This document shows, piece by piece, positions 43,065 through 54,969 of a stretch of 64,000 nt of DNA. The notes beneath the pieces are model-generated. The model searched no databases, was not told the DNA's origin, and saw nothing but the letters and a program-made list of their open reading frames with translations. The first letter of the stretch is position 1. Each line of letters opens with the position of its first letter. A program made the translations under genes and the position numbers. Where the stretch lies: NCBI GenBank assembly GCA_903822005.1, contig CAIJNL010000014.1, positions 1 through 64,000 of the forward strand, given 5' to 3'. This DNA is from an uncultured Nitrospiraceae bacterium (lineage in GTDB: Bacteria; Nitrospirota; Thermodesulfovibrionia; Thermodesulfovibrionales; Dissulfurispiraceae).

Positions 43065-43817
43065 GTGTACAAAGGTTTGCAACTTCTGATTGATCTGCAG
43101 AAATTCGACACACAAATCCTTTCCTTACGGCTCAAGATAGATTCAATCCCGGCCCATATCGCAGCGGACGAAGCAGTTTACCAGCAGGCGCAGAAGGCCC
43201 ATGATTCGGCCGGACAGCAGCGGCTCGCCCTTGAAAAGAAAAAGAAAGACAAGGAACGCCAGGTCGAGGAGCTGACCGAAAAGATAGTCAAGATGAAGGC
43301 GCGCGCCGCAGAGATCAAGACAAACAAGGAATACCAGGCCAACCTTAAAGAGATCGAGGCATTCGAGTCCCAGATCCGCAGTGTGGAAGATGAACTGCTC
43401 GAAATTATGGAGGCCCTCGAGACCGCCTCAAAAGATGGCGCCGCTCAAGACCAGAAGTTCGCAGCTGCAAAAGCCGAAGCGGAAGCGATTGGCAAGGAGA
43501 GGTCCGAAGAGATCTCCGCAGCTGAAGAGGAAATACAGGCCCTCAAGGCAAAGAGAAAAGAACTTGCAGCTTCAATTGATCACGAACTGTATGAGCAGTA
43601 TATGGGCATTCTCAAGTCCTGCAGGGGACTCGCTGTTGCGGAAGTGGTGAAGGAAGTCTGCCAGGGCTGCAGCATGAACATCCCGCCCCAGCTGTTTGTT
43701 AGGATTAAAAACGGGGAAGATATCTTCGAGTGCCCGCAATGCAGAAGGCTTCTCTATTATATAAAACCCGAAAACGAAAAACAGGAAGAAGCTGCCCCCA
43801 AAAAAGCTGAAGCTTAA
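43065..43817 (+). CDS. coiled-coil protein with C4 zinc ribbon
   Basis: A protein of 250 residues from a GTG with GAGGAG upstream. Residues about 1-190 are a long heptad coiled coil rich in Glu and Lys; the end has CQGCSMNIPP and CPQCRRLLYY, a C4 zinc ribbon. This is the CT398/zf-RING_7 family, which is widespread in bacteria and has no agreed function. It follows tRNA-Met and converges with selD. Confidence 0.85.
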   Translation: MYKGLQLLIDLQKFDTQILSLRLKIDSIPAHIAADEAVYQQAQKAHDSAGQQRLALEKKKKDKERQVEELTEKIVKMKARAAEIKTNKEYQANLKEIEAFESQIRSVEDELLEIMEALETASKDGAAQDQKFAAAKAEAEAIGKERSEEISAAEEEIQALKAKRKELAASIDHELYEQYMGILKSCRGLAVAEVVKEVCQGCSMNIPPQLFVRIKNGEDIFECPQCRRLLYYIKPENEKQEEAAPKKAEA

Positions 43818-43823
43818 CTTCTT

Positions 43824-44834
43824 TTATTCGACTGCAACCCTGCCAGTTCCTTTCGTGACACGCCCTATTATCTTGTAGAAAATCTCTGCCTCGGCAAAGA
43901 ATCGCACACCGTCCTCCTTTACCGCAATCAGAAGACCACCCGAGGTCTGGGGATCGGCAAGCAGCAGTTTCTGCTCTTCAGTGACCAAGGGTCCAAAATC
44001 GACCTTGGGGGCCACATACTTCAAATTGCTGTATGCGCCTGCGGGTACCATTCCGAAATCTATCATTTCCTGCACTCGCTCCAACACAGGAACGCCGGCA
44101 AGGTCTATTACAAAATCCAGCGCCTCATCCCTGAGCATATTCAGCGCATGCCCGAGCAGGCCGAAGCCCGTGACATCCGTACAGGCCGATGCCCCTGATT
44201 TCAGTGCCAGCAACGACGCCTTGTCATTCAATGTACGCATCCATTCAATTGCATGCCCTGTTTCGGCATCCGTAAGCATACCGCCTTTCAGGGCAGTTGT
44301 CAGGATTCCTATGCCGAGCGGCTTGGTCAGGATGAGAAGTTCGCCCTCTTTCGAACCGGTCGCCCTCAAAATCCTGTTCTTGTCGATAGTGCCTGAAACA
44401 GACAGCCCGAACTTGATCTCATCATTATCAAAGCTGTGGCCGCCTACCAGCAGCACGCCGGCGCGTTCAAGAACAGCAATAGCGCCCCTCATGATTTCCC
44501 TGATTACAACAGGCTCGCATGTGCACGCGGGGAACCCGACAATAGCCATGGCAGATACCGGCTTGCCGCCCATTGCGTATACATCGCTTATCGAGTTGGC
44601 GGCACTTATCTCGCCAAAGGTAAACGGATCGTTGACCACCGGCGATATTACATCCACGGTCTCTACAACCGCCTGTTCGCCAAAAAGGCATACCCCCGCG
44701 TCGTCGCCGGGCCCGACAAGCATTTTGGGCGCGGGACCGCGGCGAAGGTCTGCCATAATGATGTCAAGGTCTGCCAGACCTATCTTGGCAGCTCAACCGG
44801 CAGCTTTTACTTTTTCTGTCAACTTATAGTCCAT
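43824..44834 (-). CDS. selD: selenide, water dikinase, itself a selenoprotein
   Basis: A 336-residue protein read from the ATG at 44834 through an in-frame TGA at 44793-44795 as selenocysteine 14. The N-terminus is then MDYKLTEKVKAAGU followed by AAKIGLADLDIIM, the family start in which Sec or Cys is catalytic. GPGDDAGVCLFG and the later DVTGFGLLGHALNM and DPQTSGG are SelD motifs. A hairpin AGGTCT-GGC-AGACCT begins about 12 bases after the TGA and is a candidate SECIS. SelD makes selenophosphate from selenide and ATP. An ATG after the TGA (44756) would lack the catalytic loop. Confidence 0.9.
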
Positions 44835-44962
44835 ACGCAAGTTATTATACCCTTTAGTGAAGACATGGTAAAGGATACCGCTGTCTTGTCTTTAAGATGA
44901 ACAGCATATTATCATTAATAAAATTGAATATAATAATGATAAACAGCCGGGGAGCGACACAG

Positions 44963-45718
44963 ATGGATAACGGTAAAGTAGCTATTGTCACAGGCGGAGG
45001 CCAGGGGATCGGCAAGGCCGTAGTAAAAAGATTACTCGATGACGGTTTCAAAGTTGTTATCGCTGATATCGATAAAGAGGCGGGCAGAGAGACCCTTGAG
45101 GAATATCATGCCCTCGGAGATTCAGTCTTTATGCATGCTGACATCTCGGACGAAGCCGCTGTCAAGGCTGTTGTCAAAGAAACAATATCATGTTTTCGGC
45201 GCCTGGATGTTCTGGTAAACAATGCAGGGACCATGATCAGAAAACCTCTTGCAAAATTGAGCCTTACCGAATGGAACAAGGTTATCGGAGTAAATCTTAC
45301 CGGCGCATTCCTCTGTGCGAAATATTCAGCGCCTTATCTGTCAAAGAATAAGGGCTCAATAGTAAACATAGCTTCAACACGGGCGTTCATGTCAGAACCC
45401 GATACCTTTCCCTATTCCGCCTCAAAGGGAGGTATTGTGGCCCTTACCCATTCGCTGGCATGCAGCCTCGGGCCTGAGGTGCGTGTAAACTGCATCAGTC
45501 CCGGATGGATTGATGTGAGCAGGTCTGAAAAGAGACGAACACGGAAGCCTGAAAAGCTTTCGGAGATGGACCACAAACAGCATCCGGTTGGCAGAGTTGG
45601 AAGACCGGAAGACATCTCCGCCATGGCGGCTTATTTAATCTCTGACACGGCCGGTTTTATCACAGGGGCCAATTTTGTGGTTGATGGTGGAATGACGAGG
45701 AAGATGATTTATGAGTGA
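44963..45718 (+). CDS. short-chain dehydrogenase/reductase
   Basis: A protein of 251 residues from the ATG at 44963, which has GGGGAG 8 bases upstream; an earlier in-frame ATG at 44897 adds an unlikely tail. The NAD(P) motif VTGGGQGIGKAV is near residue 10, NNAG near 88, and the catalytic YSASKGG follows a Ser. NFVVDGGMTRKM at the end is typical. It resembles 3-oxoacyl-ACP reductase and sugar-alcohol dehydrogenases; the substrate is unknown. It is divergent from selD. Confidence 0.85.
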   Translation: MDNGKVAIVTGGGQGIGKAVVKRLLDDGFKVVIADIDKEAGRETLEEYHALGDSVFMHADISDEAAVKAVVKETISCFRRLDVLVNNAGTMIRKPLAKLSLTEWNKVIGVNLTGAFLCAKYSAPYLSKNKGSIVNIASTRAFMSEPDTFPYSASKGGIVALTHSLACSLGPEVRVNCISPGWIDVSRSEKRRTRKPEKLSEMDHKQHPVGRVGRPEDISAMAAYLISDTAGFITGANFVVDGGMTRKMIYE

Positions 45719-45759
45719 AGGGTGCTAGTTTTACATATTCTATTGCTTCCTGTTCCTCC

Positions 45760-46569
45760 CTATCTGTCTTTTTCTGCAAATGCCTTAAAAAATGTGTAGC
45801 AGAAAACTCCGTCGGCCTCTGTGGTGCGATAAAGGTCTTTTATTCCTTTGTCAAAAACAGTTTGGTCAATCAGCCCGGCGCCAAGGGCCGAGCCTCGCAC
45901 ACCCTCAATCATTGCTGTAAAGGTGTTCTTGGTAAATCCCTCTACAAATTCCGGCCTGCTGGAATCAACGTATACCATTCGTGGAGAAACGCGAACGGAT
46001 TTAAACCCGGCCTCGTTAAGCAGAGGATAAAGCTCACGTCCGATCAGCGCATTGCCACCTGCCTTTTTTTGAAGTTCAATCTGACACTGTATTGCCCCAT
46101 TGGCTTCTTTGCTGTCCGGATAAAAATACGCGGAGCCGTGATCGCCCTCGATTACGGTAATGGTGCCTCCAGGCTTTATAACCTTCTTCAGGCTAACGAG
46201 GGCTTCAACCGGATTAAGAAGATGTTCGAGAACAAAACAGACAAAAACATGGTCAAACGATTCCGCTTCAAAAGGCAGATGAAATATGTCACCCTGCTGA
46301 AACCTGACATTAGTGATACCTGCGTTCTCTATTCTTTCACGTGCCTGGGAAATTGATACTTCAGAAATGTCCAATGCCGTTATTGCTGCCTTCGGACTGT
46401 TTTTAGCAAGAGTTATGGTTTGAGCACCAACGCCGCACCCTGCTTCCAAAACGCGACTGCCAGCGGGATAAGATGTATCAGAGTGCAAAAGTTCTATAAG
46501 AGTTGACGCCTGATCCTGCAGACGACGACCTTCTCTTTCATCATATCCATGTACGTATGTTTTGTGCAT
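45760..46569 (-). CDS. class I SAM-dependent methyltransferase
   Basis: A 269-residue enzyme. Motif I is VLEAGCGVGAQTITLA at about 40-55, then ITALDIS and the GDIFHLPFEAESFDHVFVCF segment. The length and central part resemble UbiE/Coq5-like and small-molecule methyltransferases. A GGGGAAG site is upstream of the ATG. It converges with the SDR gene. The substrate cannot be read. Confidence 0.82.
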   Translation of the reverse strand: MHKTYVHGYDEREGRRLQDQASTLIELLHSDTSYPAGSRVLEAGCGVGAQTITLAKNSPKAAITALDISEVSISQARERIENAGITNVRFQQGDIFHLPFEAESFDHVFVCFVLEHLLNPVEALVSLKKVIKPGGTITVIEGDHGSAYFYPDSKEANGAIQCQIELQKKAGGNALIGRELYPLLNEAGFKSVRVSPRMVYVDSSRPEFVEGFTKNTFTAMIEGVRGSALGAGLIDQTVFDKGIKDLYRTTEADGVFCYTFFKAFAEKDR

Positions 46570-47045
46570 GTCTTCCCCTTTTATTGTCCCCCCACTTTAG
46601 ATTTCTCCGTTAAAAATCACCCGGTTCGGACATAGCCCTGTATTTAGAAATACAGTCTTGCCATACAATAGCATATAATAATGCATCTTCTGCTACCAGT
46701 TGCTTTTATTATCCTGCTACAGGGCGAAGAGCATCAGATAGTCGAGAACAGCCGGATTTGAAGGCAACATTCATCCAGTTTCATCATTGTCCAATATCCC
46801 CCTAATTTCCCCCTGTTTGCCCTGCATTCTGGTCAGCAGAACTGTCTGAAAACTATAACATATCTCTGTTAAGCAGGGCTTAAATCATCCTCTTGACAAG
46901 AGATAGGCCCCTGCGTGAGACTATATAATAAGTTTTTTAAGGCTTGGGGGGCCGGGAAGCAGTATACACGAGTATTTATTGCTGAATACCGATATCTCAT
47001 CTGCCAATACAAAAAGACCAACACAGGGAAAAGGTGACCAATATT
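46570..47045. other. 476-base gap upstream of the AOR module
   Basis: No protein gene is supported. TTGACA (46893-46898) and TATAAT (46924-46929) are both perfect but 25 bases apart, too far for a standard sigma70 promoter. The module's promoter is nonetheless probably near here, since transcription from the reverse gene on the left cannot serve it. Confidence 0.4.
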
Positions 47046-47960
47046 ATGGAAACAGCGGTCAAGGAAAAAGAGTCTTTGAACAACTGCAGTGAATTGTCGT
47101 TGAATCCGCTCTGTTCCCGCCGACAGGTTTTAAAACTCGGCGGCATCTCTATCATCGGGATGACCGCGCTCGGCTCATCTCTTGCCGAGGGCGCTGTTAA
47201 GCCCCTGATCATCATGGAACAGGCAACTGGATTAGTGACCTCGGACCCGAACAAATGCGTAGCGTGCGGACGCTGCGAACTCGCCTGCACCGAGTTCAAT
47301 GACGGCAAAGCGGCACCCACGATATCCAGGATCAAGGTTGACAGGAACATGAATTACGGGTCGAGCGGTGATCTGCTGCAACGGGAAGGCAAGGGCAACT
47401 GGGGAGACGGAGTTGTCGTGCAGGACCTCTGCAAGCAGTGTCCCCATCCTGTGCCCTGCGCCAATATATGCCCCGAAAACGCAATTGTCGTTGGCCCGGT
47501 TGGTAACGCACGCATGATAGATATGCAGAAATGCACCGGCTGCAAGGTATGCCTGAAGGCCTGCCCCTGGGAGATGATCTCTTTTGATGCGGAAACCCGC
47601 AAGGCAACCAAGTGCGATCTCTGCAAGGGCAAACCGAAATGTGTTGAGGCCTGCCCCGCAGAGGCCCTGACATATGTCGGCTGGAAAGATTTGACCGACA
47701 AGATTCCTCCCCGCACCATGACCACTGCGCGGATGCTTGAAGAACGCGCCCTGGCCTGCCAGGAATGCCATATGCCGGGACAGGGTAAAAATATCGAGCA
47801 GGGATTCGGGATCTTCACAGGCTCCTCAAGAAAGGGGCGGCCGGTTTCTGCCGGGGAGTTCGGCTTCAGGTGGGTCGACCTCGCGGGCTCAATTATGCTG
47901 CCCGTTGGAATCGCTTTAGTTGCAATACATGCTGTAGTACGGAAGGTGACAAAGAAATGA
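47046..47960 (+). CDS. Tat-exported ferredoxin subunit with CXXCH haem site and membrane anchor (AOR module)
   Basis: A protein of 304 residues from the ATG at 47046 (AAGGTGA lies 9 bases upstream; an in-frame GTG at 47034 is possible). A twin-arginine signal, SRRQVLK with a hydrophobic run, lies near residues 24-50. Ferredoxin motifs follow: CVACGRCELAC from Cys71, CKQCPHPVPCANICP, CTGCKVCLKACPW and CDLCKGKPKCVEACP, enough for four [4Fe-4S] clusters as in HybA/DmsB. CQECH at 238-242 is a c-type haem motif, and one C-terminal helix (about 278-299) anchors it. This places electron transfer on the periplasmic side. It overlaps the cytochrome b gene as ATGA. Confidence 0.85.
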   Translation: METAVKEKESLNNCSELSLNPLCSRRQVLKLGGISIIGMTALGSSLAEGAVKPLIIMEQATGLVTSDPNKCVACGRCELACTEFNDGKAAPTISRIKVDRNMNYGSSGDLLQREGKGNWGDGVVVQDLCKQCPHPVPCANICPENAIVVGPVGNARMIDMQKCTGCKVCLKACPWEMISFDAETRKATKCDLCKGKPKCVEACPAEALTYVGWKDLTDKIPPRTMTTARMLEERALACQECHMPGQGKNIEQGFGIFTGSSRKGRPVSAGEFGFRWVDLAGSIMLPVGIALVAIHAVVRKVTKK

Positions 47961-48643
47961 AAAAAATATATCTTCATGCCCTGCCGCTCAGGATATGGCA
48001 CTGGATGAACGCGCTCATGTTTATTATTCTGCTTGTAACCGGACTGCAGCTTCGCATGTCGGGGGTGGCAGATCTGAGCCCTCACGATCCGGCCCTGGTA
48101 ATACATAACTACGCCGGATGGGCCATGGTCGGCTTCTACATCTTATGGCTTGCGTACAGCATCGTCAGCAGAAATCTGATCAACAACTATGTAATCCGCA
48201 AGCATGATCTCGGCGGGATTTTCGGCCAGGCGAAGTATTATCTCATCTCAATCTTCAAAGGTGAAGAAAACCCTTTCACCCCTTCGCCTGACAACAAATT
48301 CAACCCTCTCCAGAAAATAGCCTATGGTTCAGCCATGTTTATTTTCGCGCCGGTCATTATCATCACGGGCCTGCTTTATACCGACATCAGCTGGCTGCGC
48401 CAGTTCATTCTCGACTCGAAACTGACTGGTACTATAAATGCCATTCACATAATGGCCGCGTACCTGTTTGCCCTTTTCCTCATTATCCATGTTTATATGG
48501 CGACCCTCGGTCCAACGCCCCTGACTCATATCAAGGCGATGATCACCGGTCATGAGGAAGAACCCGATGGACCAAAAGTTAAGTCTTCTGCCAAGACTCT
48601 TCCGGCTGACCCTGCCTCTGAAGCAGGAAGCCAGGGTGCATAG
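47957..48643 (+). CDS. cytochrome b subunit (FdnI-like) of the AOR module
   Basis: A protein of 228 residues from the ATG at 47957, overlapping the ferredoxin stop. Four transmembrane helices carry conserved histidines: LPLRIWHWMN (His15), VIHNYAGW and IHIMAAYLFALFLIIHVY. This is the cytochrome b561/formate dehydrogenase gamma type, which binds two b haems and reaches the quinone pool. The C-terminal ~30 residues are polar. It would link the AOR and its ferredoxin to membrane quinones. Confidence 0.88.
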   Translation: MKKIYLHALPLRIWHWMNALMFIILLVTGLQLRMSGVADLSPHDPALVIHNYAGWAMVGFYILWLAYSIVSRNLINNYVIRKHDLGGIFGQAKYYLISIFKGEENPFTPSPDNKFNPLQKIAYGSAMFIFAPVIIITGLLYTDISWLRQFILDSKLTGTINAIHIMAAYLFALFLIIHVYMATLGPTPLTHIKAMITGHEEEPDGPKVKSSAKTLPADPASEAGSQGA

Positions 48644-48685
48644 TAATTTCATGAGACAGAAATTTATGAGAAGGAAGGAAAGATA

Positions 48686-50797
48686 ATGACTAAATACGGC
48701 GGTTGGTCAGGAAAGGTACTCCATGTCGATTTATCGAATGGACGCACCTGGACTGAAGATACCATAGAAAAATACAAGGACTATCTCGGCGGAACAGGCA
48801 TCGGCTACAAAGTCATGTGGGATGAAGTCCCGACAGGCACAAAACCTTTCGATCCCGAAAACAGGATTATCTTTGCTGTCGGCCCACTGGCTGGAACCGG
48901 CGCTCCCTGCAACGGGCGCACCGCCATTACAACACTTTGGCCTACCTGTACCCCTATGCCTCTTGTAGGCTCCGGGCACATGGGTGGTCAGTTTGCCGCG
49001 AAACTGAAGTATGCGGGATATGATGCCATTGTGATAAAAGGCAAGGCAGCATATCCGGTATGGCTATCGATCGTAGACAACAAGGTTGAAATCCTTGACG
49101 CCAGGCGCATCTGGGGTACCGGAATTCGCGATGCAACAGCCGCGATCACCCAGATAATGGGACCGGAAGCATGCGTGTCCGCCATCGGACAGGCCGGAGA
49201 AAATCTTGTGCCCATGTCGGTAGTGATAAACTCTGTTTCGCATTCAGCCGGCGCGATCGGCGGGATAATGGGCTCAAAAAACCTTAAGGCCATTGGCGTG
49301 CTCGGCACAGGCAGCGTGCACATTGCCGGAAAGAAAGAAGAGTGGGAAAAGATGGTCAAATACCACCTTTCCCTTCTTGGCGCGAACAATCAGCATGTTG
49401 TGCCCAACTCTCCCCAACCATGGGCCGAGTTTTACGAACCTGGCACCCGCTGGCTAGCCTCCAAAGGCAGATCATGGGGCGCCAATGCCCGTCCAGTCGA
49501 AACAGGTGCCTGTGATCCACACAATCTTAACCGCATCGCTTACCGCACCAACAACGCGGCCTTTTTCATGGGAGAAATAGCCTGGCAATATACCGTGCGC
49601 GGCAATGGCTGCACCAGCTGCCCGATCAGGTGTCACACAATTATCAAGGTGCCGGCTCTCTCTTCAAAATATGGCATACCCGAGATCGGCCAGAATACCT
49701 GCTCAGGCCTGAACTTCGGCCGCAATTTCTACAGGAAATTGCCGGGTGGCAACAAAGGGATGCACAGTGTTGAGACAAACATGGTTGGAATGCATCTGGC
49801 GGACGACCTTGGGGTATGGTGCAATTACTCACAGATGCAGCGCGACTTCCAGAAGCTCTACTACGACGGCTACATCGAAAAAAACCTTGGATCCAAGGAA
49901 TTCAAAAGCTTCTCATGGAAAAAATACGAGCAGGGCGATGCGTCATTTCTCTTCGAAATCATCCCCAAGATCGCCGCAAAGGAAGGAGAGCTTGGAACAG
50001 CGCTAGGCCTGGGCACAGGATATCTCCTGCAGCGCTGGTCGATTTCCGAAAAGGATTGGGGCAAGGACAAGGAACTGTTTTACTGGAAGATGGGGCATCC
50101 GAAACACCACTCGACTGAAGACGCCGGACAGTGCGGATACATCATCAACACCCAGTACAACCGCGATGCCCAGTGCCATTCGCATGTCAATTTCGTAAGA
50201 AACGGTCTGCCTCTCGAGGTCCAGAAAAAACTCGCGGAAGAGATCTGGGGTTCTCAGAAGGCGGTTGATGCGGTTGGCGCGTACACACCTATGCACAAGT
50301 CAAAGGCAAAGATGGCAAAATGGTCCATTATCAGAAAGGAACTCCATGACTCCCTGTCTATCTGCAACTGGATGGGCCCATGGATAGCATCTCCCCTTAA
50401 GGAACGCGGATACAAGGGTGATGACTCGATAGAATCCAAGCTTTACACGCTGGCCACCGGTGATAAAAAAGACCGGGCCGAGCTTGATGCCGTGGCGGAA
50501 CGCATATTCCTGCTTCACCGCGCCCTTACGATACGGGACATGGGCACGAAGGACATGCGCGGCAAGCATGACCTCGGCCCTGACTGGGCATTCACTGACA
50601 AATCCGGAAAGCCCCCCTACACAAAGGGGACCATTCACCTTGACAGAAAAGATGCCTCGCTCGCAATGGACATGTTCTATGATGAGATGGCCTGGGACAA
50701 GACCACCGGCGCACCAACCTCTGCGACTTACCGCAAATTCGGACTTGCCGGTGTGGCAGATGAACTGGGCAAGCGCAAACTGCTGCCGGGAGCGTAA
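48686..50797 (+). CDS. aldehyde ferredoxin oxidoreductase family protein (tungsten or molybdenum pterin)
   Basis: A 703-residue protein. It starts GGWSGKVLHVDLSNGRTW and has the AOR N-terminal domain with YLGGTGIGYKVMWDE and GPLAGTGAPCNGRTAI. The [4Fe-4S] ligands are Cys309, Cys312 and Cys316 (GCTSCPIRCHT) and a distal Cys560 (SLSICNWMG). The family oxidises aldehydes or reduces acids with a bis-pterin tungsten site; benzoyl-CoA reductase BamB is a relative. It lacks its own export signal. The partners are a Tat ferredoxin, a cytochrome b and a 197-residue unknown. The substrate is unknown. Confidence 0.9.
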   Translation: MTKYGGWSGKVLHVDLSNGRTWTEDTIEKYKDYLGGTGIGYKVMWDEVPTGTKPFDPENRIIFAVGPLAGTGAPCNGRTAITTLWPTCTPMPLVGSGHMGGQFAAKLKYAGYDAIVIKGKAAYPVWLSIVDNKVEILDARRIWGTGIRDATAAITQIMGPEACVSAIGQAGENLVPMSVVINSVSHSAGAIGGIMGSKNLKAIGVLGTGSVHIAGKKEEWEKMVKYHLSLLGANNQHVVPNSPQPWAEFYEPGTRWLASKGRSWGANARPVETGACDPHNLNRIAYRTNNAAFFMGEIAWQYTVRGNGCTSCPIRCHTIIKVPALSSKYGIPEIGQNTCSGLNFGRNFYRKLPGGNKGMHSVETNMVGMHLADDLGVWCNYSQMQRDFQKLYYDGYIEKNLGSKEFKSFSWKKYEQGDASFLFEIIPKIAAKEGELGTALGLGTGYLLQRWSISEKDWGKDKELFYWKMGHPKHHSTEDAGQCGYIINTQYNRDAQCHSHVNFVRNGLPLEVQKKLAEEIWGSQKAVDAVGAYTPMHKSKAKMAKWSIIRKELHDSLSICNWMGPWIASPLKERGYKGDDSIESKLYTLATGDKKDRAELDAVAERIFLLHRALTIRDMGTKDMRGKHDLGPDWAFTDKSGKPPYTKGTIHLDRKDASLAMDMFYDEMAWDKTTGAPTSATYRKFGLAGVADELGKRKLLPGA

Positions 50798-50823
50798 GAC
50801 GAGCCCCCGATGAAATCGAATAG

Positions 50824-51417
50824 ATGAAGGCAAACAAAAGTCTTAACCCGGCCATTTCGGATGAAGCTGCTGAACAGGCATTTGCGGCAATGATCAGGAA
50901 GGGCAGTGAGGAAGGGAAGCTCGTCGCTGAAGACGAGCTCCTGGCCTCTGCCGTTGAGCGGGATCTTTTGAACTCAAAGCCGGCCGGTCATGCCAAAGAG
51001 GTCAAAAAAGCGCTCAACAGCCTCATAAAAAAGAACAAAGACCTTCGTGCGCTTAAGGCGCAGGATGGCTCGCGAAGGTTCTTCTCATCCCTGCTTATCA
51101 CCGAAGCCTATGCCGGAATACTGCTCCAGAAAGAGGGAGACCCCCTGCGGCTTATCGCTGAAATCGTGCGCCAAAACTCGAAGATCTACCCGCGCCCCGT
51201 CCCTCTCGACCTATTTACCCAGCCTCCGTTTGATCTTGGGGATCAGGAGGTCAGGGATTATATCAAGAAAATGACCTCCGACAAGGCGTATCGAGATATC
51301 TCCCTGACTGCAACTTCGACATCCAGGGAGTTCCTCTATTCATCCCTGTATCTTGAACCCGATCATGCCTCTATGCTTGCCCAATGGTTCGATGTCGGAC
51401 GAGCGGACAATCCCTGA
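50824..51417 (+). CDS. unknown protein linked to the AOR module (197 residues)
   Basis: It starts 26 bases after the AOR gene and has no signal peptide or membrane helix. The sequence looks alpha-helical, with charged helices in the first 80 residues and YPRPVPLDLFTQPPFDLGDQ near 125-145. No family was recognised. A cofactor- or export-chaperone role like the TorD-type proteins for Tat-exported molybdoenzymes would suit the context, but no motif proves it. Confidence 0.7.
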   Translation: MKANKSLNPAISDEAAEQAFAAMIRKGSEEGKLVAEDELLASAVERDLLNSKPAGHAKEVKKALNSLIKKNKDLRALKAQDGSRRFFSSLLITEAYAGILLQKEGDPLRLIAEIVRQNSKIYPRPVPLDLFTQPPFDLGDQEVRDYIKKMTSDKAYRDISLTATSTSREFLYSSLYLEPDHASMLAQWFDVGRADNP

Positions 51418-51544
51418 TTCAACATTAGGTCTCTGCGTGCCGGATCTGTTGCCAGCTTCCCTGACTTGATAACCTGCTTCAGTAATTGGCTAAAAATATG
51501 ATAGATTATAAGCAGATGGCAATCAGTCAGGAAAGGGGCCCCTA

Positions 51545-51943
51545 ATGAAAAAAAGAATATTTTTTATATGCCTGCTAATTTGCATATTCATGCTTCCCCT
51601 TCTCTCTTCAGCATCTGACTGGAGGATGTTCACCCCCAAGCAGAAAGACGGCTCTACATGGTATTACGACAAGAGCAGCATCGTATATATGAAAAACAGT
51701 GTCATCATAGGCATACCCATGCCCTTCAAAGACAGTAACTATCAGAAAATGTGGATAAGGGCCTCTTCAGACGCGGGCGAAAAAATATACCAGGTAGAGC
51801 TTAGCTGCAAAGAGCGCACAGCAAGAATGCAGGACAATAATGGTAAAGGCATATATAATTTTACGCTCATAGACTACCTTTACGACCGCCCTATCCCGCC
51901 TGACACTGTCCTGGACTGGCTCAGTAAATCCGTTTGCCACTAA
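51545..51943 (+). CDS. small exported protein (surface-adhesin E-like)
   Basis: A 132-residue protein. A signal peptide (KKRIFFICLLICIFMLPLLSSA) is followed by SDWRMFTPKQKDGSTWYYDKSSI, the pattern of small periplasmic proteins of the surface-adhesin protein E kind. Two cysteines near the ends of the mature part could pair. AAAGGGG is upstream of the ATG. The function is unknown. A hairpin overlaps its stop codon. Confidence 0.65.
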   Translation: MKKRIFFICLLICIFMLPLLSSASDWRMFTPKQKDGSTWYYDKSSIVYMKNSVIIGIPMPFKDSNYQKMWIRASSDAGEKIYQVELSCKERTARMQDNNGKGIYNFTLIDYLYDRPIPPDTVLDWLSKSVCH

Positions 51944-51956
51944 CATCGAGTGGCAA
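51934..51956 (+). terminator. hairpin over the stop of the small exported protein gene
   Basis: A perfect 8-bp stem TTGCCACT/AGTGGCAA (51934-51941 with 51949-51956) around a 7-base loop; the TAA stop begins within it. No T-run follows, so its strength is doubtful. Confidence 0.45.
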
Positions 51957-52067
51957 CAGGCGCGCTTAAGTACTGATAATCTTGATTTTTACTATTGTGA
52001 GTCTTTTGATGATTATCAAATGAAACTTTACAATATTCATATGAATTATTGAAGGGACGGAACTAAG

Positions 52068-52765: not shown

Positions 52766-54613
52766 TCAGAACGTACCGATTAACTCTTCCAGCCCCAGAG
52801 ACTTCAGGGTCTGGGGAAGAGGCCTGCCTGTTTTGGCTTCCCAGCCCATTGCTTCAAAATAAGCATGCACCATAAAATCCATGTGGGGTTCGCTGGGTCG
52901 TCCCTTCACAGGACCGTCAACAGGAGTCGAACCATACCGGGCGGACGGCCTTTCCAGTGCAGGGTCGAGTCCGTGGCGGAAATTAAATACCCTGAGCAGA
53001 TTCACGATTCTCCGCCCGATTACCAAAGCAGCCTGCATGTCCAGGTCCCATCCTGTCACCGCATTCACAGCCTCGACCGCCATATTTCTGTTTGGGCAGC
53101 AAAAGGCGCAAATGCCAAGACAGTCCACAAACTGCAACCAGCCATTCTCTTTGGCATTCACCAGGGGAACTTCCCATGGCGAGAATTTGTCTGACACAGG
53201 CGGATTTCCGAGTCGTTCCGGGAAAACCCCGCCCCGGGTCGCCTCAATAGTGCTTGTATTGGATGTGCAGGTGTCCAGCATTTCGCACCACCGGCCGCGA
53301 TGATCATGCCCCCTGGGCGACGCCCCCTTCAGGGTATAAATGGCCCAATCAGCGGCTTCCCCGCCGATTTTTTTTGAGGCCCTCATTACGCCCTCGGCTA
53401 GAAGGTCTCCGATGTCCTTCCTGTTGGCTATCATCCTGAGCATCTCTTTGACCGATTCGACATTCCCCCAGCTCATGTCAAGACCCGAAAGGTCATCTTT
53501 TCTGAAAACGCCTTTTTCATAACATTCCATGACCCATGCAACAGTCCAGCCCGCTTCATTGGCATCAAGGCCCATCTCATCAGCGAAAGCGTTGAGCATT
53601 ACCGTGGCACCCGGATCAGTATTGCCGATCAGCGACCCCCAGGCAGCAAGTGCTTCGTATTCCGGCTCCTCTCCCACAAATCCGGTGTACGGTCCTTCGG
53701 TCACTTCACAGGTCTTGCAGTGGAGAAGCCGGCAGGCCCAGCAGGGGTTATTTTTCATCTTGAAGTGGGTCCGGAGATAATGTCCGTCCAGCTTTTCATG
53801 CTCCGGAAAGATATTTGTCGTATAGTTCTTAACAGGCAGAAATCCGCCCTGTTCAGCGCCTGAGAACCCGCCGCCGGTCCCGAATTCATAAATGCGCTTT
53901 GATCCCTTGGTTTTGGCATCCTCATGCATTTCCTTGGCGAGCCGTTCAACGGCATCGAAATCCTTGACGGGGACCTTAGCGGTCCCGCGCGCAACTGCAA
54001 CAGCCTTGAGCTTTTTAGACCCCATCACCGCGCCAAGTCCGTTATGCGCCACAACATGTCCTCCGTCGCCAGAGATCATCGCGTAGCGGACGAGATTTTC
54101 TCCGGCCGGACCGATGCATTGTACGCTCCCCTGTTTACCGAGGCCTAATTCTTTCAGCAGAATATCTTCGGTTTCGAGTGTTCCCTTGCCGGCCAGATGA
54201 CTGGCATCCCTTATCTCAGCTGTCCCGTCATGAATATAAATGTAGACCAGATCTGAAGCAGCGCCCTGGACAATGAAACCGTCAATTCCTGAAAATTTAA
54301 GATATGCGCCAAAACGCCCATTGGCCTGCGAACTGCCTGCGAGATTGGTCATGGGCCCTTTTGAGACAACTGAAAAAGTACCGGTTCCGGATATACGGGT
54401 TGCACCTAACGGGCCTGAAAAGAACATCAGGCGGTTTTCAGGGTCATTCCATTCCACACCCGGGAGAACTTCGTCATACAGGTATTTGACCCCTATTCCG
54501 GTTCCGCCGACATATTTATGTATCAGGTCATCGCTCAGTTCCTCTGCCTTCACCTGTCCAGAGCCAAGATCGATTCTGAGAAGCCTGCCCATGTATCCGT
54601 ATTCAGTTTTCAT
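52766..54613 (-). CDS. second aldehyde ferredoxin oxidoreductase family protein
   Basis: A protein of 615 residues from the ATG at 54613, with AAGGAGG about 10 bases upstream; an earlier in-frame ATG at 54682 gives an unlikely tail. It has YMGRLLRIDLGSGQ and YVGGTGIGVKYLYDE at the start. The [4Fe-4S] ligands are Cys291, Cys294 and Cys299, with the distal Cys502 in DCLGICAFCCPN. The length is normal for soluble AORs. It has no ferredoxin or cytochrome next to it, so it would use soluble ferredoxin in the cytoplasm. A good promoter lies on its strand. Confidence 0.92.
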   Translation of the reverse strand: MKTEYGYMGRLLRIDLGSGQVKAEELSDDLIHKYVGGTGIGVKYLYDEVLPGVEWNDPENRLMFFSGPLGATRISGTGTFSVVSKGPMTNLAGSSQANGRFGAYLKFSGIDGFIVQGAASDLVYIYIHDGTAEIRDASHLAGKGTLETEDILLKELGLGKQGSVQCIGPAGENLVRYAMISGDGGHVVAHNGLGAVMGSKKLKAVAVARGTAKVPVKDFDAVERLAKEMHEDAKTKGSKRIYEFGTGGGFSGAEQGGFLPVKNYTTNIFPEHEKLDGHYLRTHFKMKNNPCWACRLLHCKTCEVTEGPYTGFVGEEPEYEALAAWGSLIGNTDPGATVMLNAFADEMGLDANEAGWTVAWVMECYEKGVFRKDDLSGLDMSWGNVESVKEMLRMIANRKDIGDLLAEGVMRASKKIGGEAADWAIYTLKGASPRGHDHRGRWCEMLDTCTSNTSTIEATRGGVFPERLGNPPVSDKFSPWEVPLVNAKENGWLQFVDCLGICAFCCPNRNMAVEAVNAVTGWDLDMQAALVIGRRIVNLLRVFNFRHGLDPALERPSARYGSTPVDGPVKGRPSEPHMDFMVHAYFEAMGWEAKTGRPLPQTLKSLGLEELIGTF

Positions 54614-54969
54614 CCTTCGCAGTCCTCCTTCTACTCCATTATATTCTTTATATCCGCCGAAATGTTTGCTCCCATACGGCAAAGTTCAGCCACATGCATA
54701 AAACGGTTTTAGAAAATGCTCTCAGGTATTATACTCGTTCCCCGTGCTATTGTCATCAGGGACATGAACCGGGCCACAACGCCTGTAATCACTTTCGTGC
54801 TCACTCCGGCTTCTTTGATCTTTACCCCTATGGCAATAAAGCACTCTTTTTTAATTTCAGATATAATATGCTTACTTAGTTGCTTCCTTACCTTGCTGAC
54901 AGTCACGTTTTTTGAAATTGCGTGTTTCAACGAACAAGGATTTAAATCTGCTTTAAGGGAGGGTTTGTG
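54614..54969. other. 356-base divergent region between AOR and DASS genes
   Basis: It holds the AOR promoter on the reverse strand (54728-54756). On the forward strand a TATAAT at 54862-54867 lacks a good -35. No gene is convincing: a short reverse-strand open frame (54709-54930) starts at TTG and has no ribosome site. Confidence 0.4.
54728..54756 (-). promoter_or_regulatory. promoter of the second AOR gene
   Basis: On the reverse strand, ATGACA (54756-54751) and TATAAT (54733-54728) are separated by 17 bases. Transcription would start about 107 bases ahead of the ATG at 54613, leaving a long leader. Confidence 0.6.

Follow-up and report, generated by a model that had tools for sequence, protein, structure and literature searches.

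A probable exported YdhV-type Mo/W enzyme with a candidate c-haem site on its ferredoxin subunit in a Nitrospiraceae bacterium

The window, i.e., the whole 64,000-nucleotide stretch of Nitrospiraceae DNA analysed here, carries a four-gene operon of the E. coli ydhYVWXUT type, as judged by sequence, and its product is most likely a Mo/W-enzyme complex exported past the cell membrane and linked to respiration. We consider it probable that this complex is a membrane-attached respiratory YdhV, or Class V WOR, whose ferredoxin subunit is tipped by a c-type haem and, in this operon, anchored to a cytochrome b that connects to quinone. The complex probably represents the Class V/clade 41 kind of WOR already in the literature, to judge by the YdhV model, which its large subunit passes, and by the grouping of that subunit with its relatives on a tree of large subunits. 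A periplasmic, Tat-dependent enzyme of the AOR family has already been published and hence is not new, and the haem-attachment-type tail on the electron-carrier subunit appears not to have been described before.

Operon structure and the catalytic subunit

All four genes lie on the plus strand. The first encodes the S subunit, a WorS/YdhY-like ferredoxin of 304 amino acids (47046..47960; NF007382 (YdhY), E 1e-42, below the cut-off), the second a YdhU-like cytochrome b of 228 amino acids (47957..48643; PF01292, E 3.6e-25), the third the L subunit, a YdhV-type AOR-family Mo/W enzyme of 703 amino acids without a signal peptide (48686..50797; NF007354), and the fourth the W protein, YdhW-like, 197 amino acids long and likewise without a signal (50824..51417; NF007411, E 4.6e-34, below the cut-off). 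The stop codon of the S gene and the start codon of the cytochrome b gene overlap in ATGA (47957–47960), while 42 bases separate the cytochrome b gene from that of L and 26 bases separate L from W. The same four-gene order, which the earlier note had proposed to look for elsewhere, occurs in the closest relatives and, as S-(cytb)-L-W, is conserved across several phyla. A search of positions 43500–52000 against Rfam gave no match, and scans for promoters and terminators returned signals close to the shuffle level.

The L subunit scores 1018.4 bits against the NCBIfam model of YdhV (NF007354), whose curated cut-off is 868, and it comprises the AOR-family domains PF02730 and PF01314. C309, C312, C316, and C560 are assigned as the cysteines of its [4Fe-4S] cluster from the AOR family. 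C339, invariant in 30 sequences, aligns to Cys336 of E. coli YdhV. Profile similarity between L and BamB, the AOR-family subunit of class II benzoyl-CoA reductase, is mostly confined to the first 330 residues, and the BamB complex is cytoplasmic and has other partners. According to a 2025 review, Cys336 is an extra metal ligand that YdhV shares only with BamB (4z3w), and the second-shell residues of the aldehyde-oxidising members are missing in the YdhV clade (PMC12096430). An AOR in the strict sense has no protein ligand to the metal, while in L the reported ligand cysteine is present and invariant; L is thus a YdhV with a metal-ligand cysteine and not a classical aldehyde oxidase, and it should not be named an aldehyde oxidoreductase by function. 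Of the label "AOR" given in the earlier note, the family assignment stands and the enzyme type does not.

The two AOR-family domains would also suit a classical aldehyde:acceptor oxidoreductase relocated to the periplasm and passing aldehyde electrons to quinone, but the cysteine common to YdhV and BamB and the reported absence of the second-shell aldehyde residues (PMC12096430) speak against such an enzyme, as does the failure of the partially purified large subunit of a relative, CsWOR41L, to act on any of 46 aldehydes (PMC13328260); we regard it as very improbable. Aldehyde oxidation, implied by the earlier AOR reading, was for the same reasons, the cysteine ligand and the published negative assays, rejected as the default function and main reading.

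Two further loci of the window touch on this enzyme family and on selenium. At 52766–54682 on the minus strand, convergent to the operon, lies the gene of another AOR-family large subunit, which Pfam places in the ordinary type; there are four AOR-family genes in the genome in all. The selD gene for selenophosphate synthetase (43824–44820, minus strand) has an in-frame TGA at the usual "GUAAKIG" place, where plain ORF calling trims the protein to 310 amino acids, and SelD itself probably carries selenocysteine, to judge by this codon.

The W protein reaches 118 bits against NF007411 (YdhW; cut-off 203), which makes it a homologue rather than an equivalog. Its AlphaFold model (pLDDT 92) comprises two tandem winged-helix repeats, and the structural matches listed for it by Foldseek are mostly winged-helix proteins with middling scores and weak E-values, the best being 0.003. 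A Tat chaperone of the TorD/NarJ type, which has an all-helical fold, was considered; among the listed matches, weak as their E-values are, none is TorD-like. A Pfam search of W gave no family matches. Two stretches of the protein, YPRP and YLYS, are conserved, and hardly any locus lacks the W gene; that W is a cytoplasmic helper is a guess.

The window's operon is similar to E. coli YdhYVWXUT, whose YdhV is a Mo-bis-MPT enzyme, in that L is a YdhV by the curated model, that W resembles YdhW, the cytochrome b YdhU, and S YdhY, and that the metal-ligand cysteine is conserved. It differs in lacking ydhX and ydhT genes and in encoding one ferredoxin instead of two. Moreover, E. coli YdhY has TRLEFL and neither a CXXCH tail nor a tail helix, whereas in the window's S subunit the twin-arginine motif is complete, CQECH is present, and the C-terminus forms a membrane helix.

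The ferredoxin subunit, its CXXCH motif, and its membrane tail

The open reading frame of S begins at a GTG (47034), and the start at ATG 47046 yields the protein of 304 residues. Its twin-arginine motif SRRQVLK (47115..47135), recognised from the sequence and from relatives, is followed by GGISIIGMTALGSSLAEGA, the hydrophobic run extending to about 47189. Four [4Fe-4S] motifs formed by invariant alignment columns come next: I, C75–C85 (47256..47288), II, C133–C146 (47430..47471), III, C167–C177 (47532..47564), and IV, C194–C207 (47613..47654), numbered in the GTG form. They use 16 cysteines, so that both cysteines of CQECH (residues 238–242 in the ATG form, 47757..47771), a candidate site for the attachment of a c-haem, are extra and lie outside the clusters. 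A transmembrane helix (about 47880..47939) lies near the C-terminus, the final residues being RKVTKK. All these parts, i.e., the signal with its hydrophobic run, the four clusters, the CXXCH, and the terminal helix, had been described in the earlier note and are present. The AlphaFold model of S has helices at 29–53 and 279–307 and is of low confidence (pLDDT 58), so motif-to-cluster distances are not measurable from it. Having a twin-arginine signal and a C-terminal helix beside a WorL, S corresponds to the definition of Class V (WorL beside a WorS with a Tat signal and/or a transmembrane segment), and with an N-terminal Tat signal and at most two hydrophobic helices, one of them no more than 50 residues from the C-terminus, also to that of tail-anchored Tat proteins.

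A first survey by protein scan with S yielded 22 loci; as ACQECHMP was among its six search peptides, the second was run via the large subunit (YdhV model) and was blind to the motif. It covered Nitrospirota (matches in 2/295 genomes), the phylum of Desulfovibrio (15/395), one Bacillota phylum (11/348), and the orders of Syntrophus (11/149) and Parasutterella (1/200), with a few matches scoring under the curated cut-off. Distinct loci with a readable S number 52, E. coli and the window counted in.

A C-x-x-C-H after cluster IV is found in 45 of the 52 loci. Its histidine is as invariant as its two cysteines, while the X residues vary freely, at least 27 different pairs being found. Since the post-cluster-IV site is conserved while X varies, the motif was rejected as an accident of a cysteine-rich protein; together with the twin-arginine motif, found in 48 of 50 S relatives, this shows that the features of S are not due to chance. 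Some relatives have incidental C..CH sequences within their clusters, e.g., at loci L009 and L022. The tree of large subunits (50 rows) separates the 43 rows with the motif from the seven without it, with moderate branch support (83/51). Loss of the motif in homologues had been named in the earlier note as a refutation of its reading; the motif is retained in the great majority of loci, and on the tree the seven that lack it are placed outside the CXXCH group.

The position of the motif relative to the C-terminus varies with the presence of the cytochrome b gene. In seven Bacillota proteins C..CH makes up the last five residues of S, and 1–24 residues come after it in the remaining loci that have no cytochrome b; in the 14 loci with cytochrome b there are 48–63 residues beyond it, the membrane helix included. 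The match between the long tail with the helix and the cytochrome b gene is exact (14/14 loci with the gene, 0/38 without). In the cytochrome b loci the tail contains a conserved histidine inside the helix and a conserved W-(I/V)-D upstream. The clade of 14 loci comprises Nitrospirota, Syntrophales, and allies, and its 13 rows on the L tree form a single group with support of 100/99. The cytochrome b aligns with HyaC. By its b561-type family match and by four histidines (H15, H50, H164, H178) that do not vary among 15 sequences, namely 14 orthologues plus YdhU of E. coli, it conforms to the di-haem cytochromes of the FdnI/HyaC/YdhU type.

Genes for haem attachment accompany the motif. PF01578 (cytochrome c assembly), a model not specific to haem ligation factors, is found in all 41 genomes whose S has C..CH and in two of the five Bacillota genomes whose S is without it. 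The base rate in the Bacillota phylum is 93/199 genomes, and PF01578 is present in 6/6 motif-bearing Bacillota genomes, which is suggestive, with a chance of about 0.01 if the genomes were independent but with few evolutionary changes behind it; by the L tree, the association of motif and assembly genes reflects one or two such changes. The window's genome has haem ligation genes (PF01578 and PF05140), with ResB and CcsA-type genes among them. From the conservation of the motif and its co-occurrence with haem-attachment genes, we infer that CQECH binds a c-type haem.

In a complex exported in the same way, C..CH could instead serve without haem, as a site for another metal or as a redox-active or structural cysteine pair, with cluster IV passing electrons directly to cytochrome b. 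E. coli YdhY and Clostridia-type relatives do without the tail motif, and since it is also missing from S in two Bacillota genomes that do have cytochrome c assembly genes, it is not essential to the family; in addition, FdnH/FdnI and HybA-type proteins connect clusters to membrane partners with no haem c (PMC10924467), and Tat substrates fold before export, while haem ligation requires an accessible, reduced CXXCH. Against this, an invariant histidine and invariant cysteines with variable X residues are the signature of a c-haem, cytochrome c assembly genes are present in every carrier genome, and a motif at the extreme C-terminus stays accessible once the protein has folded. A haem-less site is therefore, in our estimate, unlikely. 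For the family at large we lean, somewhat above even, towards a covalent c-haem at the C-terminal tip of the ferredoxin in most Class V WOR (YdhV) small subunits, which would make them the first haem-c-bearing members of the AOR family, the haem being added after Tat export of the folded cluster protein and the membrane anchor and di-haem cytochrome b having been added later in one clade. In the literature collection searched for a haem-bearing WOR subunit, no paper joins aldehyde ferredoxin oxidoreductase, periplasm, and CXXCH.

Export and the predicted electron route

The twin-arginine motif was sought by pattern search, and as both misses are proteins cut by contig ends, it is present in 48/48 S relatives whose N-terminus is complete. 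In L the AOR fold begins right at the N-terminus, and there is no signal. A tatC gene was found in 27 of 28 genomes, the exception being G184 (the genome holding locus L006), whose S has a Tat signal; its absence there may be an assembly gap. In three Bacillota loci (L084, L085, and L094) tatC adjoins the operon, as it reportedly also does in Cetobacterium (PMC13328260). A further neighbour, fdhD, lies beside the YdhV operon in L084, L085, and L016, with tatC also near in the first two, an arrangement suggesting that cofactor sulfuration and Tat export serve the YdhV enzyme.

Hitch-hiking of a signal-less subunit is standard for Tat redox enzymes (PMC10924467), and by analogy L would be carried out by S; a periplasmic Ydh complex was predicted as early as 2014 (PMC4257093). 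The complex could alternatively be split, with S and cytochrome b facing the periplasm and L remaining in the cytoplasm with another electron carrier. L itself is indeed without a signal, a cytoplasmic location is common in the AOR family, and YdhV of Gordonibacter and Eggerthella has been predicted to be cytoplasmic (PMC4257093), but the operon encodes no WorS-like subunit besides S, which matches the solved WorS chains 9mqx_E and 8c0z_C, the S and L genes are adjacent or nearly so across the loci examined, those consisting of S, L, and W only included, and hitch-hiking is, as noted, standard for such enzymes. The split arrangement is, in our view, quite improbable. The earlier proposal of a periplasm-facing, quinone-linked complex with L exported via the Tat signal of its partner thus stands as the best reading, in view of the Tat motif, the signal-less L, the four invariant histidines of cytochrome b, and tatC beside three operons; aldehyde oxidation is not supported, and a periplasmic AOR-family enzyme that depends on Tat is already in the literature.

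In the exported complex, L would receive a Mo- or W-bis-molybdopterin in the cytoplasm, possibly helped by W, and fold onto S, the sole carrier of an export signal; the Tat system would then export the pair, with L as the hitch-hiker, and the C-terminal helix of S would keep this subunit fixed to the outside of the membrane. Electrons may run between the metal, the [4Fe-4S] cluster of L, the four clusters of S, the c-haem on CQECH, the two b haems, and the quinone pool, an order and a quinone link that are proposed here. As for the reaction, we slightly prefer reduction of a periplasmic substrate with menaquinol electrons to aldehyde oxidation. Where a relative has no cytochrome b, the predicted haem would sit on a free C-terminal tail, and its electrons would go to soluble cytochromes c or to an adjacent YdhX/NrfD module. 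In Sutterellaceae (loci L021–L026) the YdhV operons run on into genes for a cytochrome with three CXXCH, for a YdhX of the Tat type, and for NrfD. This set is, by its sequence, clearly periplasm-facing and forms an alternative outlet to the membrane for the enzyme.

Several described systems share parts of this design. The Class V WORs of clade 41, such as CsWOR41 of Cetobacterium somerae, consist of WorL, a Tat-type WorS, and further subunits; they have been proposed to be membrane-associated and, since the small subunit has a Tat signal, to face the periplasm (Putumbaka et al. 2026, PMC13328260). The module of a tail-anchored Tat iron-sulfur protein with an FdnI-related cytochrome b (PMC10924467) likewise has a Tat signal, a ferredoxin-type protein with a C-tail helix, and an adjacent cytochrome b, but it was described as standalone, whereas in the window it forms one operon with YdhV and YdhW and has CXXCH ahead of the tail. 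FdnGHI and HyaABC also combine a periplasmic metal enzyme, a cluster subunit with a C-tail, and a di-haem cytochrome b; they differ in the family of the catalytic subunit and in having no haem c, and in FdnGHI the Tat signal sits on the catalytic subunit.

Implications for Class V WORs

What is added here to the main text of PMC13328260, in which CXXCH, haem, and Nitrospirota are not mentioned and neither the haem-type tail of S nor its anchor is described, is, on sequence evidence, the conserved C-x-x-C-H after cluster IV and, in the one clade of 14 loci, the extension of S by a membrane tail together with the gain of a di-haem cytochrome b. The rarity of YdhV in the Nitrospirota genomes surveyed and the position of the window's operon in a mainly Syntrophales clade suggest that it was gained by gene transfer.

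Of the tungsten-enzyme family, Class V WORs represent about one tenth; E. coli and many gut bacteria have them, and according to PMC13328260 none has a known activity or has been purified as a whole complex. The predicted c-haem on the partner subunit points to cytochromes as partners worth seeking and would be one possible reason for the inactivity of large subunits purified alone. The clade of the window represents a compact four-gene version, with the electron carriers within one operon, and, if the prediction is true, its haem is attached to a protein exported already folded.
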